From contig NZ_AP020335.1 in the NCBI RefSeq assembly GCF_013340845.1, positions 1,736,001 to 1,800,000 on the forward strand: a stretch of 64,000 bases of DNA. Direction: 5' to 3'. The DNA is from Hydrogenovibrio marinus (GTDB lineage Bacteria > Pseudomonadota > Gammaproteobacteria > Thiomicrospirales > Thiomicrospiraceae). The translations under genes were made by a program, and so were the position numbers. The notes below the pieces were generated by a model that saw only the letters and a program-made list of their open reading frames with translations, made no database searches and had not been told where the DNA came from. Below are positions 2,003 to 64,000 of this stretch, piece after piece (positions within the stretch are counted from its first letter, which is position 1; every line of letters begins with the position of its first letter).

Positions 2003-2021
2003 CCCCAACCTGGTAGATTTT
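2003..2021 (-). repeat. Dispersed 19-mer repeat, copy 1
   Basis: Reads AAAATCTACCAGGTTGGGG on the minus strand. It lies in the 63-base gap between the methyltransferase stop (2033) and the glnE start (1969), 11 bases after that stop and in the sense direction of both genes. It matches the consensus AAAATCTRCCAGGTTGGGG shared by nine copies in this window. Its function is unknown. Confidence 0.9.
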
Positions 2022-10198: not shown

Positions 10199-11095
10199 TT
10201 ATCCGCGAGGATGATGCTTGTGATGAAGTGCTTGCAGACGTTGCTTGGCAACGTGCGTATAAATTTGAGTCGTTGACAGATCAGAGTGCCCCAAGAGCAG
10301 CTGAACAGTTCTCAAGTCTGCCCCATGATTGATTAAATGCGTTGCAAAGGCATGGCGGAGGCCATGCGGCGATAACTGAACGCGTATATCCGCCTCAAAA
10401 GCCAAATTTTTGATTCTATGCCATAGCGTTTGGCGAGTCATAGGACGACCTAAGCGTGAGACAAACAACGTATCAACCCAACGCTTGGCAGCCAATTGCG
10501 GTCTTGAGCTTTCAATATAAACCTTTAGCGCATCTATCGCCAGCTCTCCTATCGGCACAATTCGTTCCTTATTCCCTTTCCCCACAACGCGTACCAAACC
10601 CGCCGAAAGATTGAGCTGTTCATAAGGCAGCGTCACTACCTCGGAAACCCTTAACCCAGAGGCATACATCAACTCCAAAATCGCCTTGTCACGCAACCCT
10701 AATGGCGTAGTTAAATCCGGTGCCGCAAGCAAGTCTTCAACCTGTTTTTCGGAAATGACTTTGGGAATCGAACGAGGAATGGAAGGTGACTTCAGTTTGG
10801 CCGTAGGATCAACACTAATGACATGTTGAGCCAACAAATACTGTGCAAAACGTTTGAGAGAGGAGATCAACCTAGCAATGGATTTGGCACTCTTACCTTG
10901 CTCAAATTGCTGATAGATAAAATCTTCCAACTGCTGATTGGAGACTGTTTTGAAATCCGAGAACTCAACCCCAACCTGGCAGATTTTTAAATCTCTGCGG
11001 TAAGCGGCAAGCGTGTTTTCGCTCAACCCTTCGTTGAACCTGAGAAACTGTAGAAAAGATTTTAATTGAGATTGGAATACTGTGTCGGATGCCAT
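10199..11095 (-). CDS. xerD: Site-specific tyrosine recombinase XerD
   Basis: A 298-residue recombinase that resolves chromosome dimers at dif together with XerC and FtsK. The N-terminal SAM-like domain (AENTLxAYRRDL type, here ENTLAAYRRDL) is followed by a catalytic domain with the R-H-R-Y set: ASGLRVSEV, SPHGLRHAFATHL and the tyrosine in STTQIYTHV. I prefer XerD over XerC because dsbC follows directly, as in E. coli, and the end HHKHHPRG resembles XerD. An oddity is that a copy of the dispersed repeat is embedded in frame just after YRRDL and encodes KICQVG, where other XerD proteins have unrelated helix residues. Overall length is not increased. Confidence 0.93.
   Translation of the reverse strand: MASDTVFQSQLKSFLQFLRFNEGLSENTLAAYRRDLKICQVGVEFSDFKTVSNQQLEDFIYQQFEQGKSAKSIARLISSLKRFAQYLLAQHVISVDPTAKLKSPSIPRSIPKVISEKQVEDLLAAPDLTTPLGLRDKAILELMYASGLRVSEVVTLPYEQLNLSAGLVRVVGKGNKERIVPIGELAIDALKVYIESSRPQLAAKRWVDTLFVSRLGRPMTRQTLWHRIKNLAFEADIRVQLSPHGLRHAFATHLINHGADLRTVQLLLGHSDLSTTQIYTHVAKQRLQALHHKHHPRG
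10969..10988 (-). repeat. Dispersed 19-mer repeat, copy 2, inside xerD
   Basis: Reads AAAAATCTGCCAGGTTGGGG on the minus strand, which is the coding strand of xerD, and encodes KICQVG in frame within the N-terminal DNA-binding domain. Confidence 0.9.
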
Positions 11096-13396: not shown

Positions 13397-13792
13397 ATGG
13401 CACATATTTTAGCGGTCGACGACTCTAATGTCACCCGATCGCTCATTCGGTTAACTTTGGAAACGCTAGACAATATAAAGGTCGATACCGCAAACAATGT
13501 CGAGCTTGGTCTCAAGCTGTGCCAGCAAAACCAGTACGATATTTTAATCCTTGATTACATGATGCCTGATAAAACTGGGTTAGACATGATCGACACTTTA
13601 AATGAACAACATCTACAAACAAATGTTCCCATTTTTATCTTATCTTCCGAAACCGATCACTCAACAAAAGAAATGGCACAAAGCAGACAAGTAAGGGCTT
13701 GGCTAAAAAAACCTTTCCGCCCTCAAATGCTTTTAGAACTGATTACAGAAACTTTGAAAGAAGTAAAAGCAAAACGCAATCACTCAAACTAA
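13397..13792 (+). CDS. CheY-like response regulator (receiver domain only)
   Basis: 131 residues forming a single receiver domain with no output domain. The acidic pair is Asp8-Asp9 (ILAVDDSN), the phosphorylation site is Asp53 (ILDYMMPDKTG), the switch residue is Ser83 or Ser84 (FILSSE), and the conserved lysine is in LKKPF (Lys105). It would act by protein-protein contact after phosphorylation by an unseen kinase. GAGGAAT precedes the ATG. Its 3' end overlaps the convergent rmuC gene by four bases. The neighbouring pilus cluster raises the possibility of a motility role, but nothing in the sequence fixes this. Confidence 0.9.
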   Translation: MAHILAVDDSNVTRSLIRLTLETLDNIKVDTANNVELGLKLCQQNQYDILILDYMMPDKTGLDMIDTLNEQHLQTNVPIFILSSETDHSTKEMAQSRQVRAWLKKPFRPQMLLELITETLKEVKAKRNHSN

Positions 13793-15162
13793 TCTTTATC
13801 CAACTCTGGCAAACTCACGTCCGCTTCATCAACAAGGTGCTTAGGAAGGTCTTTCTTGGTTTTACCTGCCAGATCCTTAAGCATTTGAGCTTGGTTAATC
13901 AAATTCCCTTTCCCGCTCACCATCCGTTTTTTAGCTTGATCGTAACTGGAAAGCGCACTTTCCAACTGACTTCCCACCTTTTCAAAACTCTCAACAAAAC
14001 CAACAAACTTGTCATAAACATCTGCTGCTTTTTTGATCAGGCTTGAAGTATTTTCCGAGCGCCTTTCATAACGCCAAAGCTGTTCAATGGTCTTCAAAGT
14101 GGTAAACAAGGTAGTCGGCGTCACCACCGCGATATTCTTCTCAAATGCCGATTCAAACAACGCAGGGTTCTGCTCAATCGCCATTAAATACGCCCCCTCG
14201 ATTGGAATGAACATCAAAACAAAGTCCGGGGCATTTAAAGACTCAATATGATCGTAACGTTTGATGCTAAGTGCTTCGATATGCTTTTGCAGACTCACCA
14301 AATGAGCCTTGACCTGCTCAACTCGGGTTTTATCATCTTCAGCATTCAGAGCTGATTCATAGGCATTCAATGAAACTTTTGAATCGATAATAATGTGTTT
14401 ATCATCCGGCAAATTCACAATCACATCCGGGCGCAGACGCTTGTTATCGTCTGAATAAAGGGACTTCTCCCTTTCGTACTCAATGCCTAGTCTCAAACCC
14501 GAGCTTTCCAGCATCTTTTCCAAAATCATCTCACCCCAGTTTCCTTGAAGCTTGTTATCCCCTTTCAAAGCCTGAGTTAAGCTTTTGGCTTCATTCGACA
14601 TGGTTTGGTTAAGCTCTTTCAACTGCTTGAGCTGCTCCACCAACGTAGCACGCCCTTCAATATCTGCCTTATGCGTTTGGTCGATCTTGTTCTTAAACTC
14701 TGTCAGACTTTGTTGCAGTGGGTTCAATACTGCGCCTAAAGCCTCTTTGTTCTGAGTATTTATTTGTGCTTGTTTTTCTTCAAATATCTGCGTTGATAAC
14801 AGTTTGAACTCTTGTGTCAAAGCTTGCTTTGCATTCTCAAGCAATGCCAACTTTTCCTCAAAACTCGCTCTGTCAGATTTCTGCTGCGTTTCCAAGCGTG
14901 TGATTTGTGAAACATAGTCCTTTTCATCTTCAGTCATTTTTTCGAGCTTCGCCTGCAACACACTTAGACTGTTCTCTGCCGTCATTGCAACCTGCTCAAT
15001 CTGCGCATAGCGACTGCTGAGGGTTTGATACTCTTGCTGTAACTGCTCTACCTTGTCTTTTTCCTGTTTTAAAGCCCGTGTAGCGGTATAACCAACATAC
15101 AGCCCGCCCGCCGCAATAATCGCTAATACAGGTAAAAGATATGCACTCTCAATGCCAAACAT
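13789..15162 (-). CDS. rmuC: RmuC family DNA recombination protein
   Basis: 457 residues with an N-terminal membrane helix (about 8-28), a long coiled coil (about 35-200), and the RmuC nuclease-like domain (GNWGEMILEKMLESSGL near 207, then RLRPDVIVNLPDDKHIIIDSKVSL, and MFIPIEGAYLMAI). In E. coli, RmuC limits inversions at short inverted repeats, and the domain belongs to the PD-(D/E)XK nuclease fold. It is the last gene downstream of the msh cluster, two bases after mshK, so it is probably in the same transcript. This placement looks incidental. Confidence 0.9.
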   Translation of the reverse strand: MFGIESAYLLPVLAIIAAGGLYVGYTATRALKQEKDKVEQLQQEYQTLSSRYAQIEQVAMTAENSLSVLQAKLEKMTEDEKDYVSQITRLETQQKSDRASFEEKLALLENAKQALTQEFKLLSTQIFEEKQAQINTQNKEALGAVLNPLQQSLTEFKNKIDQTHKADIEGRATLVEQLKQLKELNQTMSNEAKSLTQALKGDNKLQGNWGEMILEKMLESSGLRLGIEYEREKSLYSDDNKRLRPDVIVNLPDDKHIIIDSKVSLNAYESALNAEDDKTRVEQVKAHLVSLQKHIEALSIKRYDHIESLNAPDFVLMFIPIEGAYLMAIEQNPALFESAFEKNIAVVTPTTLFTTLKTIEQLWRYERRSENTSSLIKKAADVYDKFVGFVESFEKVGSQLESALSSYDQAKKRMVSGKGNLINQAQMLKDLAGKTKKDLPKHLVDEADVSLPELDKD

Positions 15163-15164
15163 AT

Positions 15165-15749
15165 TTATTTCGTCAACTCCGTTAAACGCTGCAAGTTTTC
15201 AATTTGCGAACTCAAATCCATTTGCTGTTCATTTGATGAAGCCGGTGAAACTTCCCTGACCGAGCTCAACTTGATCTTCTCTTGCTTTTGTTTCGGTGTA
15301 ATCAAGTAGCTTTTTACTTTTTTATCTTTCCCCGGAACATAGGTTTCACCGACCTTAAGATTAATTTCCTTACCTTTGAGCAGCACTTGTGCCGAATGAG
15401 GTTCCTGCAAGTTCTGCTTAAGCCGATAGCCGGACTTATCATGCTTAACGTACTTGCCATTTAAACGAAACAGCTGCCCTTCTGGCGTCGTAATAATAGA
15501 CGAAAGCGTCAATACTGGAGACCCCAACCTGGTAGATTTTGATGGTTTTACGGCAGCTTTTTGCTGAGATGCTGCTGGCTTAACACCTTGCTCCTTGTAC
15601 AAAAAAGCTTGGCGTTGCTGGTTAATCTGTTCGCGTTGTTGTGGGGTCAGAAACAGCTTTCCAAATGTTTCATCCGCATACACCGGCATTCTCACCAAGA
15701 CCAGTGCAATGAAAAAGACAACAGACAGCGTACTAATTTTCAATAGCAT
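15165..15749 (-). CDS. mshK: MSHA-type pilus biogenesis protein MshK (PilP-like)
   Basis: 194 residues with a signal peptide (about 1-25, ending VYADE), a Gln/Lys-rich linker, then a small domain (about 78-150) with GQLFRLNGKYV and LKVGETYVPG of the MshK/PilP kind, and a Gln-rich tail. MshK is thought to link the inner-membrane MshI-MshJ pair to the secretin MshL. The assignment leans on position after mshJ as well as on the weak similarity. The ATG at 15749 is only one base from its AGGAA; a TTG two codons later has better spacing. A copy of the dispersed repeat is embedded in the linker and encodes KSTRLG. Confidence 0.65.
   Translation of the reverse strand: MLLKISTLSVVFFIALVLVRMPVYADETFGKLFLTPQQREQINQQRQAFLYKEQGVKPAASQQKAAVKPSKSTRLGSPVLTLSSIITTPEGQLFRLNGKYVKHDKSGYRLKQNLQEPHSAQVLLKGKEINLKVGETYVPGKDKKVKSYLITPKQKQEKIKLSSVREVSPASSNEQQMDLSSQIENLQRLTELTK
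15522..15540 (-). repeat. Dispersed 19-mer repeat, copy 3, inside mshK
   Basis: Reads AAAATCTACCAGGTTGGGG on the coding strand of mshK and encodes KSTRLG in the linker. The reading frame differs from that of the copy in xerD. Confidence 0.9.
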
Positions 15750-15782
15750 TTCCTACTAGGGCATTCACGCGCCTAAACCAAC

Positions 15783-16421
15783 TCAGTCCAACTTAAAAGG
15801 CGTTGGCTTGGCTTGAAACAAAATCAAAGTACATTTTGCATCAAACAATGAACGATTTGGGGTAAATTTCGGTTTTTGGATAGCCTCATTGTGCGCAGAC
15901 ATTTCACAACCCTTCACCAAAAACAACGGGGTGATGTTTTCTCTGATCTTATCCAATACCGTCAATAAATCCAAATCCGACATCAATCCGATATCAAGGT
16001 GCAACTGGGTGAAGTAGAAAATATTCTTATCTAATTGAAGATAGGCAACACTCTTCCTAGTCAGTTGTTGCTCAGCATCAAACTGAAAATTAAATGGTAC
16101 AAGATTTAGCTGCGCCTTTATTTTCAACAATTCATCCGTCCACTTCACCCGATCTTGCTGATAGACCAACCCTTCATTCAAAAACTCTTGATACTTATCG
16201 CCATACGTCTTAAACAATTGCTCTTGAGTTCTTAAAAATTGCACTTGTTTTAGCAGGTTTCTCAAGTGATGTTCTGTTATTTGGTTATCTCGTTCCAGAC
16301 TTTCCTGATAGTTCAACAATCCAAACGCCAGCCCGCCGAATGTCAATAAAAGCACCAACAAGATCAACGCCGGCTTTTGCACATATTGTCGAATAAAGCT
16401 GTCTGCCCAGTTAAGCCTCAC
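15783..16421 (-). CDS. mshJ: MSHA-type pilus biogenesis protein MshJ (PilO-like)
   Basis: 212 residues: a short cytoplasmic N-terminus, one membrane helix (about 18-36, LILLVLLLTFGGLAFGLL), a coiled-coil stretch, then a ferredoxin-like periplasmic domain like PilO/GspM proteins. It overlaps the end of mshI by four bases (ATGA). It should pair with MshI to form the inner-membrane platform of the pilus machine. Sequence similarity in this family is low, so the call rests on architecture plus position. Confidence 0.75.
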   Translation of the reverse strand: MRLNWADSFIRQYVQKPALILLVLLLTFGGLAFGLLNYQESLERDNQITEHHLRNLLKQVQFLRTQEQLFKTYGDKYQEFLNEGLVYQQDRVKWTDELLKIKAQLNLVPFNFQFDAEQQLTRKSVAYLQLDKNIFYFTQLHLDIGLMSDLDLLTVLDKIRENITPLFLVKGCEMSAHNEAIQKPKFTPNRSLFDAKCTLILFQAKPTPFKLD

Positions 16422-17983
16422 TTGCCACCTCCAATCACCAACTTCACCTCAAAGGGAAGTACATTAATGGCTTCATCTGAAGCACTGGAAATGACGAGAG
16501 ATTTTTTCAAACTGCGATCCAAGGGCTCTTTGGTTAAAGTGACACTTTCAACATTTGGCTTAGATCGAAAATCTTGCACTAAGTCATCAACCCATTTCAC
16601 AGGCATTTCATAAGCCTCATGAAAAGGATAAACCCACCCTTTCAACGTCACCGAAATAGAGGAAGAATCAAATGTATCCAGTTTTTGCCACGCGACGGAC
16701 GACAACGCAATATGATTGTGACGACTCAACACCTGAGATAACGCCGCCATATCAAAACCAGCAATACCTCTAAGCTTAAGCTTCAACAGTGATTCTGAAA
16801 AGTTCACCGATGCTTTAATGTCTTCTGCGTCATATTGGAGATCAACCGAACGTTGCAACCGGCTCTTTTCTTCATTCAACTGCTGAATCTTTACATCCAT
16901 CAACTGGCGTTTATGACTCAACATATAGTTATCGACACCCAAAGTTAAAAGATAATAACTTGCCAACAGGAACAAGAAAATCGATAAGCTCAATAACCAT
17001 TTCTGCAACCTTGAAAACAACAGAATCTTGTTCACGAAATGGTTTTTATAAAAGGTCTGTAGGTTTGATTTATGCAAATATGCCGTGAGGAAGTCCAGCG
17101 TATTGTACAAGGAGTCGTCCCAACGACGAGTATTGGTAATCGTATAAAGATCGGAAGCGACTACGAAAAAGGCTTCCGGACTCCAATTGCTTAAGGCAAC
17201 TTTTTCCAAATACTCTGTCGCCACTTCCCCTTCATCATGACCATGGGAATTGATATAGATAAAGCTCACTTCAGAATTAAGAGGAATGAGCTTCTGGTTG
17301 TAAAGATATTTGACGGCGATCTGTGTCTCGTGGATCAACCCCGAGTTGATGGCATGGTCACTTTCCAATTCATCATCTAACTCTATATGACGACTGATGT
17401 TCAGTCGTCCGAAGTTAAAAAATATCTGGCGGAAATTCACTCTGGATTCTCGAAACACCAGCATCATGGGTCTCTCCAAATCCTTCTTCGATAAACTCAA
17501 TGCTGGCGCAAGCTTGTTGAGGAAAAAGTTTTCCAGCAGAAAGGAATAGGAGTAAATCGCCTTAACGGAAATCTGCGCCTCTTCAAATAAGTTAAACAAG
17601 GCTTCAAGCTGAGTGTTGCTGAACACACTGGAAATCATCAAAGCCTGCTCATCACGCCCTTCATCCGTTTGACGATAGTGAGCGAACCAGCTAAGACGAA
17701 CCAATATAGCACCCTCAGAGCGCGTTTTTTCTTCTAATCGCTTTTCGTAAGCTTGTTTTTCCCAAGGAAACAACTTCGCAACCCAGTGCATTTGATGGGA
17801 GTCGTCTACGAAATCTAATATGACAGCAACGCTTTTCTCCGAAGGTAGCCCGCCAACAGCCGTTTCAATTCGATCCCAATCACTCCAAGAAAATTTGGTT
17901 TCAGACAATTTATGTTGCATTGCACTGTTCACGTCAATCAACACTACGCCCGATTCATTGAGGTATAACAGTTTATCCATCAT
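16418..17983 (-). CDS. mshI: MSHA-type pilus biogenesis protein MshI (PilM/PilN-like)
   Basis: 521 residues combining a cytoplasmic actin-like PilM/GspL-type domain (about 1-315), one membrane helix (about 333-352, WLLSLSIFLFLLASYYLLTL), a coiled coil, and a PilN-like periplasmic domain ending in a beta strand (EVKLVIGGGK). It starts by ATGA overlap with the end of mshG and ends by overlap with mshJ, which indicates a single transcript. The protein would form the inner-membrane alignment complex with MshJ and MshK. Confidence 0.8.
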   Translation of the reverse strand: MMDKLLYLNESGVVLIDVNSAMQHKLSETKFSWSDWDRIETAVGGLPSEKSVAVILDFVDDSHQMHWVAKLFPWEKQAYEKRLEEKTRSEGAILVRLSWFAHYRQTDEGRDEQALMISSVFSNTQLEALFNLFEEAQISVKAIYSYSFLLENFFLNKLAPALSLSKKDLERPMMLVFRESRVNFRQIFFNFGRLNISRHIELDDELESDHAINSGLIHETQIAVKYLYNQKLIPLNSEVSFIYINSHGHDEGEVATEYLEKVALSNWSPEAFFVVASDLYTITNTRRWDDSLYNTLDFLTAYLHKSNLQTFYKNHFVNKILLFSRLQKWLLSLSIFLFLLASYYLLTLGVDNYMLSHKRQLMDVKIQQLNEEKSRLQRSVDLQYDAEDIKASVNFSESLLKLKLRGIAGFDMAALSQVLSRHNHIALSSVAWQKLDTFDSSSISVTLKGWVYPFHEAYEMPVKWVDDLVQDFRSKPNVESVTLTKEPLDRSLKKSLVISSASDEAINVLPFEVKLVIGGGK

Positions 17984-19185
17984 TGTACCTTGGAAATGGT
18001 GTCATAAATTGGTCCCAACACGGCCATCATTACCCAACCGACCATCAATGCCATTACAATCGTCAAAGCTGGTTCTACCGCTGGTTCAATCTTTTCAATG
18101 GTTTCTTTTGCTTCATTATCGTAAAACTCGCTGACATTTCTTAGCGCCTGATCCATATTACCGCTAAGCTCGCCAACCTTGACCATTCGAATCGCCATTG
18201 ATGGAAAAACCTCAGCTTCTGTAAAGGCTTCATTGATTGGCAAACCGTCTTCAATCAAACGAATGGCTCTTTCCACCTTTTGTTCGAGGTAGGCATTGTT
18301 GGCGACATTCACTGACATACGCAAACTATTGGTAAAACTCATTCCTGCCTCATACATGATGGCAAGTGAATTGGCGATTCTGGCAATCTTCAACTTATAA
18401 AGCACAGGACCAATCACTTTGACTCTAAAAATGGATGCATCCAATTTCACTCTAAAACGTTTTGATTTTTTCAGTAGATACTTGATACCGAACCACACCG
18501 CAAAAGGGAACAACAAGATCAAGATAATATTTTCTCGAACAAAATCCGAAGTCACAACAAGCGCTTTAGTCGCAAAGCCCAACTCACCGCCCATCTCTTT
18601 AACGAATTTCATCACTTCGGGCACCACAAAAACCATCGTCAACAATACAACGGCTATAACAACTGTTCCGACAATGGAAGGGTAAATCATGACTTTTTTG
18701 GCTTTCGAACTTAAGCTTTCTTCCCATTTCAGCATCTGTTCCAGATTCTCTAAAATAGTTTCCAACTGCCCTGTCTGTTCTCCGATCGCAACGAGGGAAA
18801 CATACACCTTGCCGAACTCTTTTTCATAACCTGACAAAGCACTGGAAAAACTCTCTCCTCCTTCCATTGCTTCATAGATGGAAGACAGCATTTCTTTAAC
18901 CGCATCATTCTCATAGGACTGTCTCAGGTCATCAATGATATCCATTAAAGACACTCCAGCCTTGAGCAGTTGCCGAAATTGCATGGTGATGGTGATAACA
19001 TCTCTTCGCAATATACGTTTACTGCCGACTCTAGAAAAAAATCCCGGAGAGCGCTCTTGATAAGAAATTAACTCAACCTTCGCCAGCTTTAAACGCTGCT
19101 CCAAATCCTGAGCATTTGCAGCCTGCATCTCTCCATTGACACGCTTACCAAAGCGATTGACACCGTTATAACGATACTCCAGCAT
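17980..19185 (-). CDS. mshG: Pilus inner-membrane platform protein MshG (GspF/PilC family)
   Basis: 401 residues of the GspF/PilC family, with two homologous cytoplasmic domains (about 65-190 and 268-390) and three membrane helices near 168-190, 216-236 and 372-395. Family signatures include MTITMQFRQLLKAGVSL-type and TGQLETILENLEQML in the first half, and VGELSGNMDQALRNVSEFYD in the second. It is the membrane core that the MshE ATPase drives to add pilin subunits. It lies two bases after mshE. Confidence 0.9.
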   Translation of the reverse strand: MLEYRYNGVNRFGKRVNGEMQAANAQDLEQRLKLAKVELISYQERSPGFFSRVGSKRILRRDVITITMQFRQLLKAGVSLMDIIDDLRQSYENDAVKEMLSSIYEAMEGGESFSSALSGYEKEFGKVYVSLVAIGEQTGQLETILENLEQMLKWEESLSSKAKKVMIYPSIVGTVVIAVVLLTMVFVVPEVMKFVKEMGGELGFATKALVVTSDFVRENIILILLFPFAVWFGIKYLLKKSKRFRVKLDASIFRVKVIGPVLYKLKIARIANSLAIMYEAGMSFTNSLRMSVNVANNAYLEQKVERAIRLIEDGLPINEAFTEAEVFPSMAIRMVKVGELSGNMDQALRNVSEFYDNEAKETIEKIEPAVEPALTIVMALMVGWVMMAVLGPIYDTISKVQ

Positions 19186-19187
19186 GG

Positions 19188-20870
19188 CTAAATCAGCTCC
19201 GTCAAATCAACCACGCGGCTAATTTCATCTAATGTTGTATCCCCTGAACGAACCCATTTCAAAGCATTTTGCAATATGGGACGAAACCCTTGGGAAATTG
19301 CCATTTCTAAAATCTGATGTTGCGAAGCTCGTTGCAAAATCAACTCATCCAACTCATCGGTAAATCTCAAGGTTTCGGTAATGGCAATCCTCCCCTTGTA
19401 GCCAATGTCATTACAGTGCTTACAACCTTGCGCGTGATAAAGGGTGATATCTTCTTCTGCTTTAATCCCCAAGATTTCTTTCTCAAAAGGTTCAGGTTTG
19501 TAAGGAGCCTTACAATTTGGACAAAGCCTACGCACTAAGCGCTGTGCGAGAATACCAATGATATTACCGGAAAGTATTGAAGGCTGAACGCCGATATCAA
19601 ATAATCTTGGAATAGAGCCAATCGCAGAGTTGGTATGCAAAGTTGCGAAAACTTGATGCCCTGTCATGGCGGCTCTTAGCGCCATTTCAGCCGTTTCACC
19701 ATCTCGAACCTCACCAATCAGAATAATATCTGGGTCTTGCCTCAACAGGGCTCTAACACCCGCAGCGAACGTCATCCCAATATCTTCATTAATAGATGTC
19801 TGGCGAATCATCGACATTGGGTACTCAACAGGATCTTCCAACGTCATGATATTTACACCTTCGTGATTGAGCTCATTCAACATCGAATAAAGCGTGGTGG
19901 TTTTCCCTGAACCCGTCGGCCCCGTCACCAAAAGGATACCCGTAGGACGAGACATCATCAGTTTCAAATCCTGATAACTGCCAGCATCTAAGCCAAGTTG
20001 TTCTAAAGGAACAATGCCTTTTTCCCGGTCCAAAATCCTCAATACAAAATTTTCACCATCTGTACCAGGCAGAGAAGACACCCTGAAATCAATTTTCCGT
20101 CCATGGACAATCAAGTCCATATGGCCATCTTGCGGCATTCTCTGATCGGTCAAGTCCAATTTGGCCATGACCTTCAAGCGCACTACCAAGCTTGACCATA
20201 TTGATTTGTGGAAAAGCCGAATCGTCGCCAACACACCATCAATACGATAACGAACGCGTATATAATGTTGCTCCGGCTCGAAATGGATGTCAGAAGCCCC
20301 ATTCTTAACCGCATCAGTCAAAATGGCATCGACCAACCTCACCATTGGCTGAGAGTATTCATCTTTTTCCGCTACGGAATAAAGGTCTACCTGACCGGTT
20401 TCCAACTCTCTAAGTATGCCGTCAATCGACAGTTCATAACCGTAATAATGATCTATTGCATGCTGAATATCGGTTTCTGAAACCAATACCGGTTCAATGC
20501 GAATATCTTTTTTTATGTGGCGCTTTAGTTTGTCCAACAACAAGATGTCATCGGGGCTCGCCATCGCAATTTTCAACCGATCGTCAGTTACACTAATCGG
20601 CATTACCAAATGACTTCTTGCAAAAGATTCCGAGACCAATGTTAATGCGTGGGAGTCTGGTACTACACCCTTCAAGGTCATGGAACTGTATCCGACAACC
20701 TCGCCTAAGATTTCTCTTGAGTCCTCTTCCGAAAGGAAGCCAAGTGATACCAAGATTTCCCCCAGCTTTTTCCCTGTCAGCTTTTGTTCAGTCAACGCAA
20801 TACGAAGCTGATCAGCGGTAATCACCCCTTCTAAAACGAGCTTGTCACCTAAACGCACCACTTGAGCCAA
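19188..20870 (-). CDS. mshE: Pilus assembly ATPase MshE (GspE/PilB family)
   Basis: 560 residues. The N-terminal MshEN-type domain, which binds cyclic di-GMP in Vibrio MshE, spans about 1-150 with LGEILVSLGFLSEED. The ATPase domain has Walker A GPTGSGKTTT near residue 325, an Asp box (MTLEDPVEYP), Walker B (DIILIGEVRD) and a His box (HQVFATLHTN). The zinc-binding cysteines CPNC and CKHC lie near 455-490. The MshEN arginine/leucine patterns appear to be present (VRLGDKLVLEG, then a second RSHL-type unit near residue 85), so c-di-GMP control is possible but inferred. It powers pilus extension. Confidence 0.93.
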   Translation of the reverse strand: MAQVVRLGDKLVLEGVITADQLRIALTEQKLTGKKLGEILVSLGFLSEEDSREILGEVVGYSSMTLKGVVPDSHALTLVSESFARSHLVMPISVTDDRLKIAMASPDDILLLDKLKRHIKKDIRIEPVLVSETDIQHAIDHYYGYELSIDGILRELETGQVDLYSVAEKDEYSQPMVRLVDAILTDAVKNGASDIHFEPEQHYIRVRYRIDGVLATIRLFHKSIWSSLVVRLKVMAKLDLTDQRMPQDGHMDLIVHGRKIDFRVSSLPGTDGENFVLRILDREKGIVPLEQLGLDAGSYQDLKLMMSRPTGILLVTGPTGSGKTTTLYSMLNELNHEGVNIMTLEDPVEYPMSMIRQTSINEDIGMTFAAGVRALLRQDPDIILIGEVRDGETAEMALRAAMTGHQVFATLHTNSAIGSIPRLFDIGVQPSILSGNIIGILAQRLVRRLCPNCKAPYKPEPFEKEILGIKAEEDITLYHAQGCKHCNDIGYKGRIAITETLRFTDELDELILQRASQHQILEMAISQGFRPILQNALKWVRSGDTTLDEISRVVDLTELI

Positions 20871-20872
20871 AG

Positions 20873-22714
20873 CTACTGCTCCCTACTGAGAAATTGATTG
20901 AGGACTACCAAACGTCGTTTAATGCTATTGGTATCAAATTCGGGTGAACTGACAGACGATTTCGCTAGCGCTTCATCATAGTATTGTTTCGCGAGCCGAT
21001 ACTCACCAAGCTGGTCTAAGCTAACAGCCAAATTCAACACATAAATCGGTTGAGCTGAATTATGTTGATAAGCTTTAAAGTAATAGGATTGTGCTGTTAC
21101 CCAGTCTTTTCTTTTGGCATAAGCGTTACCCAGTGCAAAGGTAGCTTCAGAATCATTTGGGCTTGCCTCTGCCAAACTTTTGAGCTCATCAATGGTTCGT
21201 TGATTACTATTTTCCAAAGATTGAATACTCAAAATCGCTTTTTGCGCCAACTGATTCCTCGGTTCCAATGCCAATACTTTTTGGTAATAAGCTACCGCCT
21301 TATTTTGTTCTCCCAGTTGCACCGCAACCGCTCCCAAACCAAAAAGAGCAGGAAGACTGCTTGAATCCTCTTCATAAGCTTGCTGGTAATAACGTCTCGC
21401 CGATTGCCAATCAGAACGCTGATATGCTTTGAATGCCATAGAGACAGCACTCTCCAGCTCTCGGCTGACGATTGTCATTTTAGGCGTGATTTGTTTAGGG
21501 AACTTTTGAGCAACTAACTCAGCTTTCTTGTGACCAGTTTGTTTTTGAGGTTTTAAAGGTGTCTTGTCAACTTTAGCCTCAACGGTCTTATTCGCCATTT
21601 TGCTTTCAATTGCTTTGCTTAAAACTGTCTCTGACTGTGTGACATCCGTTTGTTTTATATCCTGTTGATATGATGATAACGGGGTCTTTGGCTGCAATTC
21701 AGCATGAGAAAGCATTGCTGGTTCAACAACCCTAGGTTTGCTCAAAATCTGATAGCGCTGCAAATCTTCATCTATCACTGAGGATTGTTGATCAAAGTAG
21801 AGCATTGCATAATAGGCTAGTCCTAACAGCGCAAGAATGCCGCTGAAAAAATAGAGCCGCCATTTGCTTGGAAGGTGAGTTTTCTTACTGATTAAATGAG
21901 GTAAAATTAATCTGGTTTTCTTCTGCTGACTCTCAGTAGAACCGTAGCGCTGGTAACCGGGAATCTGCTCAAGACTCCAATCATGTTCATAGTGATTACT
22001 TGCTGATGCCGAAATTTCTTCCGAACCAATAATCTTAACTGAAGCTTCCAACTCATCATCATTATTTTGAGGTGAACTTTCAGAGTGCATAGTCTCCCAA
22101 GAATCTGGGATAATTTCTACAGACTCCTTGACAGGATCTTCTTCAGGAGCGCTGTCATCAAAAATAGTATTGCTTATATCGGCGGTACGTGAAGTATTAT
22201 CGGCTTCAAACTCAGATACCGCTAAGCGCGTTTCCAAATCATCTGAAATTGTCGACTTGGACTGAACAGAATCCTGTAGTCGAAATGCTAACCCATCGTT
22301 CAGTATTTCTTGACTAGGACTATCTAGATGAGCTGCATTTTCAGACACAAGCATTTCTTCTGAAAGGGAGACTTCAAAGCCCTCTGCAACCTCCAAAGGA
22401 GTTGCGGCGTGAGTAACGTCAACATGACTCACTTCCTGTGAAGCCATTGTGTCTTGCTCGACCTGACTATTGTCAATTTTCTGTGGTTGTTCTACTACCT
22501 CGAAATTAAACTTTAACGCCAATGGTTCATCAAACTCAGTGTCATTAGCCATATCTGCCGTTGCAGACAAGGAATCCGAAACAGAGGTCTCAACACTTTC
22601 TTGGCTTGGAGACATCATAACTATCGGTTCAACAGTTTCGTGATGTGTCGATTGCCCAGCCTGCTTCTTTTTCTCTTCGGCAGCTTTCTTTAAAGCTTCA
22701 AGCAAAACACTCAT
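20873..22714 (-). CDS. mshN: TPR protein MshN of the msh pilus cluster
   Basis: 613 residues. It opens with MSVLLEALKKAAEEKKKQ, the conserved MshN/GspC-like cytoplasmic motif, followed by about 260 acidic, low-complexity residues. One membrane helix lies near 287-307 (FFSGILALLGLAYYAMLYF), and the periplasmic part ends in at least four TPR units (about 430-605). MshN is thought to connect the pilus machine across the periplasm. The long acidic cytoplasmic region is unusual in size. It starts directly after the mshL stop (TAAATG). Confidence 0.8.
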   Translation of the reverse strand: MSVLLEALKKAAEEKKKQAGQSTHHETVEPIVMMSPSQESVETSVSDSLSATADMANDTEFDEPLALKFNFEVVEQPQKIDNSQVEQDTMASQEVSHVDVTHAATPLEVAEGFEVSLSEEMLVSENAAHLDSPSQEILNDGLAFRLQDSVQSKSTISDDLETRLAVSEFEADNTSRTADISNTIFDDSAPEEDPVKESVEIIPDSWETMHSESSPQNNDDELEASVKIIGSEEISASASNHYEHDWSLEQIPGYQRYGSTESQQKKTRLILPHLISKKTHLPSKWRLYFFSGILALLGLAYYAMLYFDQQSSVIDEDLQRYQILSKPRVVEPAMLSHAELQPKTPLSSYQQDIKQTDVTQSETVLSKAIESKMANKTVEAKVDKTPLKPQKQTGHKKAELVAQKFPKQITPKMTIVSRELESAVSMAFKAYQRSDWQSARRYYQQAYEEDSSSLPALFGLGAVAVQLGEQNKAVAYYQKVLALEPRNQLAQKAILSIQSLENSNQRTIDELKSLAEASPNDSEATFALGNAYAKRKDWVTAQSYYFKAYQHNSAQPIYVLNLAVSLDQLGEYRLAKQYYDEALAKSSVSSPEFDTNSIKRRLVVLNQFLSREQ

Positions 22715-24424
22715 TTAACTCGACTTCGTCTTAAGAAACTTTCTGACTGATTTCAGGTCGCCATTATCAATATCAGGATTATTCACAATAATGGGACGGA
22801 TAAAGATAATGAGTTCTGTCTTCTTCACCGTATCATCTCGGTAGGTAAACAAATCCCCTAACCACGGAATTGAGCTTAAAAATGGCACTCCCTGTTTTTG
22901 ATTATCGTGCGTATCTTGAATCAAGCCACCGATAATCGCTGTTTGTTTATCTCTAAGCTTCAGAACCGAGTCCATTTCTCGCTCCTGAACGACAGGAATT
23001 TCGCTTTTTACATTTTGCTTGGCAAGTTCAGGGTTCGGATCATTTACATAGCCTACAATTCTTGAAAGTGTTGGGCGCACATTAATCGAAATCTTGCCAT
23101 CATCTGAAATAAACGGAGTCATGTTCATCATAAAGCCCACTGGAACAGTGTGCACAGTCGTTTCAAAAGTCGTACTCTGTAGGCCATTACTGATTTGCGA
23201 ATCTACTTCAACCGTGAAATACACTTGGTTTTTAACCACTTTCAACATAGCTGACTGGTTGTTCATCGCCATAATCTTCGGACTGGAAAGCACCTTGGTA
23301 TTACCAAACTGTTGCAACATCTTCAAATCAAACATTCCATTGGACAACGAGAGATTAAAGAAAGGTGCATTAGACAGATTCAATCCCAACAATTTCTGTG
23401 ATGCGGAATTGCTGCCACTCACTGCCGACCAGTCGACACCCGCCTGATATTGATCGTTCAACTCAACTTCAACGACCGTAGCTTCAATCAACACTTGTTT
23501 GGAAGTGCGATGCATCACTTTATCCAGATAATGTGAGATCCTTTGTTGACGATTTCTCGTGGTGTAAACTGATACAAGCCCAGCTTCCTTATTAACAACA
23601 ACATTGTCCGTATTCTTAACTTTAATATCAGTCACAGAATCAGTGTCTCCACCCGAAGCACTTGTATTTTTAGTCAACGAACCGCCATCTATTCCAGCGG
23701 AGGATTCAGCGTTATGATTGCTATTGCGAACCCGAACGTTTTTGGTAACTTCGGATCCCAACTGAGCCATTGAAGAAATATTACTCACCAATGCCCCCCA
23801 AAAATCGTTGGTCGTCTCTACATTCATACGAAACTCACTGGCTTTCGCATCACCAGAATCAGAACCGTTACCAATATCTCCTACTGACATTTTCATCACG
23901 GTAGAGTCTTTGACCTGTTTTCTTACATTGACGTAGTCCACACGATAGGTGTGCCAGTATGGAGTATCTGGTCGGATACTAATGGTTCCATTCGACAACT
24001 CATAAACAGCCCCCACCTGCTCGGTAATTCTTTTTAGAATTTCGTCCAAAGGTTGATTAAGCGCATTGATCGTAACCTCTCCTTTTACTTCCGAAGATAA
24101 ATCAAGTTGTTTCTTGGCATCCACTGATAAGTTATAGAGCAGGTCATTCACGGGAACCTTTACCGCAGACACACTGTAAAGCTTTTTGACGACACCAGTA
24201 TCTGGGTTGATGTTAATAGCCTGTACGCCCACCAAGCTAGGAATTGGCGCGTCCATTTGGGCACTTCCGTCACTCTTCAGCGTTGGTCTCGTGGTCAAAT
24301 GCCCTTCAAGATTAAAATCTTTGGATAATGGTGGCGCAACCGGATCCCGCTTTACGGTTTGTGACGTACTGCATGACTGCAACCCAAAAAATAGAATGGA
24401 TAGTGCAAAAATTTTCGTTTTCAT
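22715..24424 (-). CDS. mshL: Outer-membrane pilus secretin MshL
   Basis: 569 residues. A lipoprotein signal ends in the lipobox LQSC near residue 18. An N-terminal secretin/TonB short domain follows (about 85-165), then a Ser/Asn/Gly-rich stretch, and the conserved secretin pore domain (about 310-555) with VEVELNDQYQAGVDW, VLSSPKIMAMNNQSAMLKVV and GLIQDTHDNQKQGVPFLSSI. It forms the ring through which the pilus leaves the cell. The start overlaps mshM by four bases (ATGA). Confidence 0.92.
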   Translation of the reverse strand: MKTKIFALSILFFGLQSCSTSQTVKRDPVAPPLSKDFNLEGHLTTRPTLKSDGSAQMDAPIPSLVGVQAININPDTGVVKKLYSVSAVKVPVNDLLYNLSVDAKKQLDLSSEVKGEVTINALNQPLDEILKRITEQVGAVYELSNGTISIRPDTPYWHTYRVDYVNVRKQVKDSTVMKMSVGDIGNGSDSGDAKASEFRMNVETTNDFWGALVSNISSMAQLGSEVTKNVRVRNSNHNAESSAGIDGGSLTKNTSASGGDTDSVTDIKVKNTDNVVVNKEAGLVSVYTTRNRQQRISHYLDKVMHRTSKQVLIEATVVEVELNDQYQAGVDWSAVSGSNSASQKLLGLNLSNAPFFNLSLSNGMFDLKMLQQFGNTKVLSSPKIMAMNNQSAMLKVVKNQVYFTVEVDSQISNGLQSTTFETTVHTVPVGFMMNMTPFISDDGKISINVRPTLSRIVGYVNDPNPELAKQNVKSEIPVVQEREMDSVLKLRDKQTAIIGGLIQDTHDNQKQGVPFLSSIPWLGDLFTYRDDTVKKTELIIFIRPIIVNNPDIDNGDLKSVRKFLKTKSS

Positions 24425-25761
24425 AGTGCAGCCTTTAACTGTTGAACAGTTAGTACGCGTGAAGCCAGCTGTGGCATTTCATTGGAGAATTGTTCTTGTA
24501 GCGTCTTAACCGCTTCTTGTGAGAGGTTGCTAACATCAAAGAATGTCAAGGTTTCAAAAAGATTTTTAGCAGGATTAAGGTTCAACAACACATACACTTT
24601 AGATTGTTGGGCTTGAGAGATTTTTGACGTGACTTCTTTATACATAGACTGAAAATCATGAATATGGTCTCGTGACAACAGAAGCAATTCACCACTATTG
24701 GGTAACTGCTGGAGATACTGAAATGCCGACATGTTTAATCGGTATAGCACTTTGATGGTTTTGATGTTCGTATCAGTCTTCTCGGACAGCTCTTTGATTG
24801 ATAAAGTGTTTGACGTAATTGGCATTTGACTGGCATTTTTCGGAATGACAACCATTCCTTGCCCTTTCTGCCATACGAAAGCCATCACACTTAATGAAAT
24901 CAGCAAACCACCAAAAACAACCGCGTATCTTGGCCAGATACCTTTGCCTTTATTAGAGGTCGATGATGAATAACCTAATGCTTTAAGATGCTTTTTCTTA
25001 ACTTGCATATCGCCATCACTAAACGCCGCCATCAAAAGCTTATCGGCTAGCAAATTGATCGCTCTTGGAAAGCCCCCTGATATCTTCCATACTTGCTTCG
25101 CAAGCTTGCTGGTAAAGACATCTTGATCCAGTCGCCCGGCAACGCGCATTCGATAGTTCAGATACATGAACACTTCATTAGCATTGAATGGAGGAAGCGT
25201 TAACTCCGCTGCAATACGATCTTTTAGAGGCTTGACTCGCACATCATTAAGCGTGACATCCAACTCGGGCTGACCAAACAAAACCATTTGTAAGAGTTTA
25301 TCGGTTTCGGTTTCCAAGTTACCGAGCAAGCGCACCTCTTCTAATGCATCTAAGGTCATTGACTGAGCTTCATCGACCAACATGACAACTCGTTTACCTT
25401 GTGCATAAGCTTCAATCAAACGTGCCTGCAAACGTCTAACAAGATCATGCTTTGTATCCGTTGAATCATAAGGAATTTGTAATTCACTACAAATGAACTT
25501 CAAGAAGTCGATTGGAGATAAATTAGGGGAAGAGATATAGATATTTTGGTAGTGCTTGGGAAGCTTTTCGACCAGCATGCGTAACATCATTGTTTTGCCG
25601 ACGCCGACTTCACCCACTACCTTTACAATGCCATCCCCCCTGAGAATCGAGTACAACAAGGCTTCAACCATTTCTTCTCTGGATGCTTGCTTGTAAAAAT
25701 ATGACAAATCTGGGGAAATTTTAAAGGGAAGTTCTTTTAAACCGAAAAAAGATCGATACAT
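24421..25761 (-). CDS. mshM: AAA ATPase MshM (ExeA/GspA family)
   Basis: 446 residues. The start MYRSFFGLKELPFKISPD is typical of ExeA/MshM. Walker A is GEVGVGKTMM near residue 52, and Walker B is VVMLVDEAQSM near residue 130. A membrane helix lies near 290-310, and the periplasmic C-terminus has Gln-rich strands. The family uses ATP to help place or assemble the secretin through the cell wall. It is the first gene of the cluster; 146 AT-rich bases separate it from the ilvC terminator, and the promoter should lie there. Confidence 0.88.
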   Translation of the reverse strand: MYRSFFGLKELPFKISPDLSYFYKQASREEMVEALLYSILRGDGIVKVVGEVGVGKTMMLRMLVEKLPKHYQNIYISSPNLSPIDFLKFICSELQIPYDSTDTKHDLVRRLQARLIEAYAQGKRVVMLVDEAQSMTLDALEEVRLLGNLETETDKLLQMVLFGQPELDVTLNDVRVKPLKDRIAAELTLPPFNANEVFMYLNYRMRVAGRLDQDVFTSKLAKQVWKISGGFPRAINLLADKLLMAAFSDGDMQVKKKHLKALGYSSSTSNKGKGIWPRYAVVFGGLLISLSVMAFVWQKGQGMVVIPKNASQMPITSNTLSIKELSEKTDTNIKTIKVLYRLNMSAFQYLQQLPNSGELLLLSRDHIHDFQSMYKEVTSKISQAQQSKVYVLLNLNPAKNLFETLTFFDVSNLSQEAVKTLQEQFSNEMPQLASRVLTVQQLKAAL

Positions 25762-36638: not shown

Positions 36639-36657
36639 AAAATCTACCAGGTTGGGG
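36639..36657 (+). repeat. Dispersed 19-mer repeat, copy 4
   Basis: AAAATCTACCAGGTTGGGG on the plus strand, 17 bases after the trpS stop and before a small membrane protein gene. It matches the consensus exactly and is in the sense direction of trpS. Confidence 0.9.
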
Positions 36658-38737: not shown

Positions 38738-38756
38738 CCCCAACCTGGCAAATTTT
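38738..38756 (-). repeat. Dispersed 19-mer repeat, copy 5
   Basis: Minus strand AAAATTTGCCAGGTTGGGG, one base different from consensus. It lies between the 54-residue gene and the ppnP terminator, and is sense with respect to ppnP. Confidence 0.85.
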
Positions 38757-48687: not shown

Positions 48688-48706
48688 AAAAATCTGCCAG
48701 GTTGGG
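48688..48706 (+). repeat. Dispersed 19-mer repeat, copy 6
   Basis: AAAAATCTGCCAGGTTGGG on the plus strand, five bases after the thioesterase stop, in the sense direction. The last G of the consensus is T. Confidence 0.9.
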
Positions 48707-50754: not shown

Positions 50755-50774
50755 CCCCAACCTGGTAGATTTTT
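50755..50774 (-). repeat. Dispersed 19-mer repeat, copy 7
   Basis: AAAAATCTACCAGGTTGGGG on the minus strand, 69 bases after the ovoB stop and in its sense direction. It matches the consensus exactly. Confidence 0.9.
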
Positions 50775-60283: not shown

Positions 60284-62992
60284 ATGAGCGAAAAAACAGA
60301 ATTAGACCCTATCACCGAAACTCTTGAGAATGAAATCTCGGATCAAACGCCAGCCGATCACGAAGCGGAGAATCAGGCTCAATCCGACGATCATCAAGAA
60401 ATCGAATTCGTTGCGTTTGAAGATCATATCGACGACTACGTCGAAGATTCGTTGCAAGCAAACGAAATAGAAGATACTGATGCAGACGAAAACTTGATTC
60501 TCGAACACGGTGAATTGATCACTGACGAAGATGACGATGTCAAAATGGCAGAAGTCGAAGATGCCGTCAAAAAAGTCACGCAAGGCTTTGCCAACCTGAT
60601 TAAAGTCAACAGCAGCAAGCCGAATCACCTATACCTGCTTCCAGTGAAAGAACGTCCATTCTTCCCTGGGCAAACCCTCCCTGTCTTGCTGAACAAAGAC
60701 CTTTGGGAAAAAACTATCAAACGCGTTATCGATGCCAAACAACGTTACATCGGTATTATTTTTGTCGATAGCGACGAGCACAACAAAGCCAAGCCAGAAG
60801 AATTTGCCAAAACGGGAACGCTGGTGCGTATCCACGACCCGAAAGTGCGTGAAGACTACATTCAACTGGTTGCCGAAGGGATTTGTCGCTTCCAAATCAG
60901 CGATTGGCTGTCTTCTGAAGAGCCTTACCATGCCAGCGTAGTCTATCCAAAAGATATCGTCAAAGGCAACGAAACCGAATTGAAAGCCTATGGCTTGGCA
61001 ATTATGAACGCCTTTAAAGAGTTGCTACCGCTGAACCCGCTTTACAGCGAAGAATTGAAATACTTCCTCAACCGCTACAGCGTGACCGACTCTGCACAAT
61101 TGGCGGATTTCGCCGCAAGTATGACGTCTGCCAGCAATGACAAGTTACAAGACATCCTCGACACCTTGGATTTGGTTGAGCGTATGGAAAAAGTGCAAAC
61201 CCTTTTCAGACACGAAATCGAAGTCACTAAATTGCAGTTCAATATTCGTGAGCGTGTGGAAGAAAACATCAGCGACCAACAGCGCGATTTCTTCCTGCGC
61301 CAACAATTGAAAGAAATCCAAAAAGAACTGGGCATGGTCAAAGATGACCGCGATGCTGATGCAGACTTGTTCCTCGACCGTATCGAAAAGCTTTCATTAA
61401 GTGAAGAAGCGGAAACCAAAGCGGAAGAAGAACTGAATAAAATCACCACGCTTGATCCACAATCGGCCGAGTATGGTGTCTCTCGCAACTGGCTAGATTG
61501 GCTGACGCAGTTGCCTTGGGGACAACACTCCAAAGACATTCTCGACCTGAAACGTGCCCAGAAGATTTTGGATAAAGGGCATGATGGCTTGGACGATGTT
61601 AAAGACCGTATTCTCGAGTTCTTGGCAGTTGGCGCGTTGAAAGGTGAAGTATCCGGTTCTATTATCTGTCTGGTTGGGCCTCCAGGTGTGGGTAAAACCT
61701 CTATCGGTCGCTCTATTGCCGACACCCTTGGGCGTAAATTCTATCGTTTCTCGGTGGGTGGTATGCGTGACGAGGCAGAAATCAAAGGACACAGACGTAC
61801 CTACATCGGCGCTATGCCGGGTAAATTCATCCAAGCCTTGAAAGACTGCGGCACCGCAAACCCGGTCATCATGCTTGATGAAATCGACAAAATTGGTTCT
61901 TCCTACCAAGGCGACCCTGCGTCTGCTTTACTGGAAGTGCTTGACCCTGAACAAAACCACGAGTTCATGGATCATTATATGGATGTACGCTTTGATTTAT
62001 CCAAAGCCGTGTTCATCTGTACCGCCAACACGCTCGACACTATTCCCGGGCCGTTACTTGACCGTATGGAAGTGATTCGCCTGTCCGGCTATATCACTGA
62101 AGAGAAAATGCAAATCGCCAAACATCACTTGTGGCCTGCACTACTTGAAGAAGCAGGTATGAACAAGAAACAGGTGCAAATCACCTTGCCTGCCATCCGC
62201 CACGTCATCGACGGCTATGCGCGTGAAGCAGGTGTTCGTAACCTAAAAAAACAACTGGCAAAAATTGTCCGTAAACTGGCGATTCGTTTCGTCAGAGAGG
62301 ATGTTAAAAGTGCGACGATTCATGTGCAAGATTTGGAAGACATGCTAGGTCAACCACGCTTTACCGAGGAAAAAACCAACTTGCAGATCGGTACCGTGAC
62401 TGGACTTGCCTGGACATCCATGGGCGGCGCAACCCTTACCATTGAGGCTAGCCGAGTGCACACGCACAACCGCGGGTTTAAGCTCTCCGGTCAGTTGGGT
62501 GAAGTCATGCAGGAATCCGCAGGCATTGCTTACAGCTATATTTCATCCTCCTTGGAAAAATACAAAGCCGACCCTGAGTTTTTTGACAAAGCTTTCGTCC
62601 ACTTGCATGTACCAGATGGCGCTACACCAAAAGATGGTCCAAGTGCCGGTGTCACCATGGCAACCGCACTCTTGTCCTTAGCGCGTAACGAACCTATCAA
62701 AACGCCTTTGGCGATGACAGGTGAGCTGAGTTTGACGGGGCTAGTGTTACCAGTCGGCGGGATTCGCGAGAAAGTCATTGCGGCCAAACGTATCGGCATC
62801 AAAACCTTGATACTGCCGGACGAAAACCGCAAAGACTTCAACGAATTGCCAGATTACTTGAAAGAAGGTGTGGAGATTCACTTCGCAAAACACTTCGATG
62901 ACGTGGCAAAACTGACATTCAATATCCGCAGCAAGTCAAAGGCATTGAAAGACTACCTTGATCGCCAAGTAACCAACATCAACGAAGCGTGA
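60284..62992 (+). CDS. lon: ATP-dependent protease Lon with acidic N-terminal extension
   Basis: 902 residues, about 115 more than E. coli Lon. The extra part is an N-terminal, strongly acidic segment (about 1-105), followed by the usual LON domain (starting YLLPVKERPFFPGQTLPVLL), a coiled coil, the AAA module (Walker A GPPGVGKTSIGRSI near 466, Walker B VIMLDEIDKIGSS) and the serine-lysine protease domain (PKDGPSAGVTMA with the catalytic Ser; Lys in GGIREKVIAAKR). It degrades damaged and regulatory proteins in the cytosol. The heat-shock promoter upstream fits this role. Whether it is the only Lon in the genome cannot be told. Confidence 0.95.
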   Translation: MSEKTELDPITETLENEISDQTPADHEAENQAQSDDHQEIEFVAFEDHIDDYVEDSLQANEIEDTDADENLILEHGELITDEDDDVKMAEVEDAVKKVTQGFANLIKVNSSKPNHLYLLPVKERPFFPGQTLPVLLNKDLWEKTIKRVIDAKQRYIGIIFVDSDEHNKAKPEEFAKTGTLVRIHDPKVREDYIQLVAEGICRFQISDWLSSEEPYHASVVYPKDIVKGNETELKAYGLAIMNAFKELLPLNPLYSEELKYFLNRYSVTDSAQLADFAASMTSASNDKLQDILDTLDLVERMEKVQTLFRHEIEVTKLQFNIRERVEENISDQQRDFFLRQQLKEIQKELGMVKDDRDADADLFLDRIEKLSLSEEAETKAEEELNKITTLDPQSAEYGVSRNWLDWLTQLPWGQHSKDILDLKRAQKILDKGHDGLDDVKDRILEFLAVGALKGEVSGSIICLVGPPGVGKTSIGRSIADTLGRKFYRFSVGGMRDEAEIKGHRRTYIGAMPGKFIQALKDCGTANPVIMLDEIDKIGSSYQGDPASALLEVLDPEQNHEFMDHYMDVRFDLSKAVFICTANTLDTIPGPLLDRMEVIRLSGYITEEKMQIAKHHLWPALLEEAGMNKKQVQITLPAIRHVIDGYAREAGVRNLKKQLAKIVRKLAIRFVREDVKSATIHVQDLEDMLGQPRFTEEKTNLQIGTVTGLAWTSMGGATLTIEASRVHTHNRGFKLSGQLGEVMQESAGIAYSYISSSLEKYKADPEFFDKAFVHLHVPDGATPKDGPSAGVTMATALLSLARNEPIKTPLAMTGELSLTGLVLPVGGIREKVIAAKRIGIKTLILPDENRKDFNELPDYLKEGVEIHFAKHFDDVAKLTFNIRSKSKALKDYLDRQVTNINEA

Positions 62993-63001
62993 TGTCACAT
63001 T

Positions 63002-63052
63002 AAAAATCTGCCAGGTTGGGTTCCGCCTTCCTCCCCAACCTGGTAGATTTTT
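63002..63052. repeat. Inverted pair of the dispersed repeat after lon, copies 8 and 9
   Basis: AAAAATCTGCCAGGTTGGG (63002-63020) and its complement form, reading CCCAACCTGGTAGATTTTT (63034-63052), face each other across 13 bases. They make a stem of about 19 bases with one G-T or A-C mismatch and end in five T, about ten bases after the lon stop. This can act as a terminator. Confidence 0.9.
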
Positions 63053-63140
63053 CCCTTTCATTTCCGCAAATCACTTCTCAAGATATATTTCGTTCCCATT
63101 CTTTGCTATGCTAATGGCACGATTCTTTGAAGGGATGGTT

Positions 63141-64000
63141 ATGAAGTCGAAAAGTCTGTACATTGCTTCTCGTGAGCGTCATGCCGGAAGCTTGGCTATT
63201 TCTTTCGGGTTGATGACTTTGCTTCACCAAAAATTCGAAAAAGTGGCTTTTTTCCGCCCGGTGGTGGAAGAAACACAGGATGCGGACTGCCTCTTCATGC
63301 AATCCGTCTTCGACCTCCCGCAATCAATGGATGAAATGGTTGGTTTCACGCTTGATAAAGTGATTCGACTATTGAGCGAAGGCCATAAACACGAGCTTTA
63401 CGAAAAGCTCATCGCTCAGTACCAAAAGCTATTGCAACAATACGATTTTGTTTTGGTACAAGGCATGGAGTTGAGCCGAATGGCTTCCACCATCGACTTC
63501 GACCTGAACCTGAACCTCTCGAAACATTTCAACGCCCCTTTCGTGCCGGTACTTAACGGTAAAGATAAAACCCTACAAGATGTCGAAAGCGACATAGAAA
63601 TGGAAATCCAAGCCGCTCATGATGAGGGCATCACCCCGTTTGCCGTATTCGCAAACCAAGTGAAACGCTCTGAAGATGCCGAGGCGAAAAAGATTTTCAG
63701 TTGCGACAGCCCGAAGCTCATCACCAAAAATGGTGAAGATTCGTTAATCTTCTATTTACCTTACCTGCCGGATTTGGACACGCCGACCGTCAAAGAAACT
63801 TACGAGGCATTGAATGGTCGTTTATTGCTCAACGACAAAGTGCCTTTGACTCGTCTTGTCAAACGCCCGGTGGTTGCCGCGATGACGGCGGAGAATTATT
63901 TGAGCCGAGTACAAGAAGGTGATTTGATTATCGTACCCGGTGACCGAACAGATATTTTGACGGTATCGGTCATGAGCCTCTACTCCAGAAGTTTGCCGAA
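63141..64000 (+). CDS. pta: N-terminal part of phosphate acetyltransferase-like protein, cut by window edge
   Basis: 286 residues are visible before the window ends. The start SLYIASRERHAGSLAISFGL and FFRPVVEE match the BioD-like N-terminal domain of long-form phosphotransacetylase, though the P-loop is degenerate compared with a true Walker A. The following part, with LTRLVKRPVVAAMTAENYLS and EGDLIIVPGDRTDI, is the DRTGG domain. The catalytic PTA_PTB domain would lie beyond the edge. Long Pta converts acetyl-CoA and acetyl phosphate. The ATG at 63141 has AAGGG; one two codons upstream is possible. Confidence 0.75.
   Translation, partial: MKSKSLYIASRERHAGSLAISFGLMTLLHQKFEKVAFFRPVVEETQDADCLFMQSVFDLPQSMDEMVGFTLDKVIRLLSEGHKHELYEKLIAQYQKLLQQYDFVLVQGMELSRMASTIDFDLNLNLSKHFNAPFVPVLNGKDKTLQDVESDIEMEIQAAHDEGITPFAVFANQVKRSEDAEAKKIFSCDSPKLITKNGEDSLIFYLPYLPDLDTPTVKETYEALNGRLLLNDKVPLTRLVKRPVVAAMTAENYLSRVQEGDLIIVPGDRTDILTVSVMSLYSRSLP

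Follow-up and report, generated by a model that had tools for sequence, protein, structure and literature searches.

Uptake sequences have been described, in the literature surveyed, in the Pasteurellaceae and Neisseriaceae only. The USS of Haemophilus and other Pasteurellaceae (AAGTGCGGT) is dispersed in hundreds of copies, fewer than expected of them in genes, and is preceded at its core by an A-tract; close inverted pairs occur in both orders, with use as terminators (PMC1852404, PMC2346458). The DUS of the Neisseriaceae exists as species dialects around a shared core, each uniform within its genome (PMC3630211). Inverted pairs in the +- and -+ orders number 50 and 25 in H. influenzae, and 226 and 5 in N. 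meningitidis (PMC1852404), and a 2026 terminator survey (PMC13020248) puts the share of terminators containing uptake words at up to 22% and 37% in some species of the Pasteurellaceae and Neisseriaceae.

Downstream of lon in Hydrogenovibrio is a hairpin that we interpret, with a probability of roughly 0.7, as an intrinsic terminator whose arms are two opposed copies of a word resembling an uptake sequence, which would add a third bacterial family. From the sequence, the terminator reading of the hairpin is likely, and the uptake-sequence reading of the word is probable but unproven. Our literature search, outside which most subscription journals lay, found no report of uptake sequences in Hydrogenovibrio, Thiomicrospira or Thiomicrorhabdus, and text searches with the bare word returned unrelated papers only.

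The hairpin downstream of lon

The window, that is, the whole 64-kb stretch of DNA analysed here, contains the lon gene for endopeptidase La (60284–62992, plus strand, 902 aa; NCBIfam TIGR00763, 952.8 bits against a cut-off of 608). Beginning 9 nt past the lon stop codon, which ends at 62992, is a segment (63002–63052) that on direct reading consists of two opposed copies of the repeat word AAAAATCTRCCAGGTTGGG. The 5′ arm (63002–63020, plus strand) is a forward copy in the G variant, AAAAATCTGCCAGGTTGGG, and fits the genome-wide consensus; the 3′ arm (63034–63052) is a reverse copy on the minus strand in the A variant, reading CCCAACCTGGTAGATTTTT on the plus strand. The 13-nt loop between them (63021–63033, as delimited by the fold) differs in the relatives G001 and G004 and is unconserved across species. 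The likely start of the next gene, phosphate acetyltransferase (63141–63998, plus strand, running off the window; NCBIfam NF004167, 173 bits for the partial protein against a cut-off of 418), lies 88 nt past the hairpin.

The RNA is predicted to fold into a 19-bp stem (−29.5 kcal/mol, z −8.06; 0 of 200 shuffles equally good), with one G–U pair on the lon strand where the R position is G in one arm and A in the other. The first-pass annotation had described an inverted pair acting as a terminator after lon and ending in T5, and the structure bears this out, termination itself being predicted: a G+C-rich stem-loop with a direct T-run stands at the 3′ end of a gene, as in intrinsic terminators, and the segment is annotated here as the predicted intrinsic terminator hairpin of lon (plus strand). 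The T5 was correctly read; these Ts, at the 3′ edge, are base-paired to the A5 that opens the hairpin, an arrangement known from bidirectional terminators, and the shape fits the minus strand too. The lon hairpin is alone in the window among stems of at least 14 bp with a loop of up to 25, of which order-3 Markov copies contained 0–2. A strict terminator scan of the window did not pick it up because only loops of 3–8 were permitted, and an Rfam scan of 62800–63300 gave no match.

The word and its dialects

Motifs and pairs were counted by pattern searches of the whole host genome (G000, a 2.49-Mb chromosome), and gene context was taken from a 464-kb sample, about a fifth of the genome, with home-made gene calls. 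The word is roughly 18 bases long, with the conserved stretch AAAATCTRCCAGGTTGGGG, and conservation beyond it is nil. Allowing one mismatch, AATCTRCCAGGTTGGG occurs 354 times genome-wide (reversed-pattern control, 0), divided 160/194 between the strands, at a density of about 140 per Mb that is several times under that of known uptake sequences. The two strands are alike, with no bias by replichore (p 0.40); identity with Chi or KOPS was rejected on the lack of strand bias.

Placement of the word is far from even. Only 24 of the 81 sites in the sample (30%), in both orientations, are coding, whereas 88% of the DNA is; the remaining 70% are intergenic, and convergent genes flank 32 sites, divergent genes a single one. 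Where single sites stand between tandem genes, their orientations are 11 to 4 (p 0.12), for which no bias is claimed. With up to two mismatches allowed, the window has nine matches, where simulation gives 0.2 on average. Single copies are intergenic at 2004–2019 (minus strand; kept in G001 and G004) and 50756–50771 (minus), within genes at 10970–10985 and 15523–15538 (both minus, and both changed in dialect from T to C in G004), and between convergent genes at 36641–36656 (plus), 38739–38754 (minus, one mismatch) and 48691–48706 (plus; an inverted pair occupies this place in G004). Two other words over-abundant in the host-genome sample, ACCACAGCGGA and GCCGGCTCCGA, are unrelated to the motif and perhaps come from a repetitive gene.

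Relatives carry the word in species-wide dialects: CCAGGTTGGG, CCAGGCTGGG, CCAGGGGTGG and the palindromic CCAGGCCTGG. Within Hydrogenovibrio, G001 has the same word as the host genome, G004 has CCAGGCTGGG, G008 has CCAGGGGTGG, and seven others have the palindrome CCAGGCCTGG; other genera of the family have ACCAGGCCTGGT, ACAGGCCTGT, ACCGGCCGGT and similar words, and a core, CCAGG, is common to most dialects. The palindromic ACCAGGCCTGG, with 437 strand-counts in G016, does not exceed 14, a background level, in any of 112 other gammaproteobacterial families and is absent from the host genome. A member of another genus in the family (G032) has a strongly different palindromic dialect, TACCGGCCGGTA, for which a 60-kb sample gives 58 strand-counts of ACCGGCCGGT, and samples of two further family members (G019 and G025) are without such a word, possibly through loss of the system.

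We know of no precedent for a palindromic dialect among known uptake sequences. HIP1 of cyanobacteria is a highly repeated short palindrome, as is the word in most Hydrogenovibrio relatives; unlike HIP1, the Hydrogenovibrio-type word is concentrated at gene 3′ ends, is flanked by A/T-tracts and is asymmetric in the host species.

The dialects are nearly pure, with CAGGT:CAGGC at 95:1 in G000 and 0:20 in G004, and uniform across the genome, as are those of uptake sequences. In alignments of these two genomes, all 15 sites are in the same place with T in G000 and C in G004, coding sites included; the remaining motif positions are 96.7% identical and the flanks 64.4%. Biased uptake with recombination would be expected to change the sites together at fixed places in this way; a spreading mobile repeat or a set of separate terminators would not.

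Inverted pairs at gene 3′ ends

The lon pair is one of 24 tail-to-tail pairs genome-wide. The possibility raised in the first-pass annotation, that no other inverted pairs exist and the terminator reading would fall with them, is thus removed by the 23 further tail-to-tail pairs found in the genome search, all of them intergenic at 3′ ends. Another 19 pairs are head-to-head. All 43 close pairs lie outside genes, next to a gene 3′ end and never between divergent genes, and 14 of the 24 tail-to-tail pairs sit between convergent genes; direct close pairs number 0 in the sampled part of the genome. In tail-to-tail pairs the A-tract and T-tract face outwards, the layout required of a terminator, and head-to-head pairs are arranged otherwise; since these 19 lack a T-run, not all inverted pairs are classical terminators. 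The 24:19 ratio brings the pair pattern nearer to Haemophilus (50:25) than to Neisseria, where the +-/-+ ratio in N. meningitidis is 226:5 (PMC1852404). Judged by their loops, which are mutually unrelated in sequence, the pairs would have arisen independently.

Across the 24 tail-to-tail pairs, the R base forms 10 G-C, 6 G-T, 7 A-C and 1 A-T combinations, with 10.4, 5.4, 5.4 and 2.8 expected under independence. The arms are therefore kept as copies of the word and not through pairing at that base. It had been argued earlier, from the purine variants at lon, that the two arms were probably not made by one recent duplication. The arms do differ, G against A, but this says nothing on their origin, because the R base changes freely between orthologues (flipped in 6 of the 15 orthologous sites) and is independent between arms.

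Such a placement could also be expected if the word were primarily a terminator or RNA 3′-end element, REP-like, spread by copying and unlinked to uptake. The predominance of intergenic sites, almost never divergent, the location of every close pair at 3′ ends and the terminator-like hairpins often formed by single palindromic sites of relatives all fit this explanation. It does not account for the 30% of sites that are coding, in both orientations, and that switch dialect as well, nor for arms without covariation at the R position and the lack of conserved DNA outside the word; a need for terminators would not impose a single-base dialect on each copy. We regard it as improbable, although it survives best among the alternatives.

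The lon locus can be followed through the genus. In 8 of 11 members, a word in the species' own dialect lies no more than about 60 nt from the lon stop codon, as inverted pairs in G000, G001 and G004 and, in five others, as a single palindromic site, which is terminator-shaped in three. The lon pair is judged to be old, as three species share it; their loops are unrelated. More generally, sites at gene 3′ ends are common to different dialects more often than expected (G000–G002, p 0.005; G004–G010, p 0.0004), the sharing with G008, G003, G006 and G007, where orthologues are few, being not significant.

The persistence at lon bears on a slightly less probable alternative, in which two uptake-like copies pair neutrally at lon and leave transcription unaffected. 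Arms kept as independent copies, R mismatches at chance frequency and head-to-head pairs without a U-tract nearly as frequent as tail-to-tail ones would agree with neutrality, but a pair that persists in three species despite unrelated loops, and the terminator-shaped sites that three palindromic-dialect species have at this position, would not.

The occurrence of close pairs follows the symmetry of the word. The seven species with palindromic dialects, in which a single site can suffice for a hairpin, show none among 156 sites, and tail-to-tail pairs occur in all four asymmetric-dialect species. Loss of palindromy may therefore have made inverted pairs necessary for a hairpin.

A putative uptake-sequence system

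Part of the machinery of natural competence is found in Hydrogenovibrio. ComEC and ComEA are each present in 12 of 12 genomes of the genus, and a PilT-family ATPase scores above its cut-off in a profile search. Neither the ComP-type receptor (PF16732, whose control likewise matched nowhere) nor the FimT/GspH receptor (PF12019) gave a match. Located on the minus strand of the window is an MSHA-type pilus cluster (13789–25761), with a GspE/PilB/MshE-like ATPase (19191–20870) and an MshL-like secretin just below its cut-off (22718–24256). Elsewhere in the host genome (G000:C1:650001-670000), two seemingly identical two-gene insertion-sequence-like units, at 650505 and 660818, flank a surface-polysaccharide gene cluster together with comEA.

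The word has copies far above chance, no replichore bias, an excess of inverted pairs at gene ends and few direct pairs, which are among the properties by which uptake sequences are recognized. The analogy with Neisseria and Haemophilus drawn in the first-pass annotation gains support from the dialects, their concerted change, the 3′-end excess and the absence of direct pairs. As in the Neisseriaceae, inverted pairs occur, here in every asymmetric-dialect species; unlike there, no ComP_DUS match was found in Hydrogenovibrio, and the dialects include perfect palindromes. With the Pasteurellaceae USS, the word has in common hundreds of scattered copies, depletion in genes, an A-tract in front of the core, close inverted pairs in both orders and, as predicted here, a role in terminators. 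It is nevertheless a word unrelated to the USS and differs from it in a longer core, in having about 140 copies per Mb, in conserved bases upstream with no long 3′ AT extension, and in that uptake is here a matter of inference.

Least probable of the alternatives is that a chromosome protein binds or modifies the word, in the manner of HIP1, Chi or methylase sites, and that its hairpins are accidental: the word of most relatives, CCAGGCCTGG, is a short palindrome of the kind recognised by protein dimers and methylases, but replichore strand bias is absent, the asymmetric form, at about 18 bases, exceeds the usual length of a methylase site, and inverted close pairs limited to gene 3′ ends would be unexpected.

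Under the uptake-sequence reading, a competence system of a type IV pilus with ComEA and ComEC would prefer DNA bearing the word; biased uptake and recombination would maintain the hundreds of copies and shift them jointly into species dialects, with copies tolerated at gene 3′ ends. Two facing copies with their A-tracts outward would form a ready-made hairpin ending in U, which could be retained as a terminator. We lean, somewhat less firmly than for the lon terminator itself, towards a broader proposal: that Hydrogenovibrio and related genera have a third, independently evolved uptake-sequence system with palindromic and asymmetric dialects, in which, once the word of a lineage had lost its palindromy, inverted pairs such as that at lon replaced single-site terminators.

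If true, the occurrence of a third system in sulphur oxidisers of the environment, distant from the other two, would indicate that tagging of self-DNA evolves repeatedly, and closely related species with differing dialects would provide a test of how dialects change and how the receptor follows. How uptake sequences relate to terminators can be tested by comparing palindromic with asymmetric words, as the construction of the hairpin follows the symmetry of the word.
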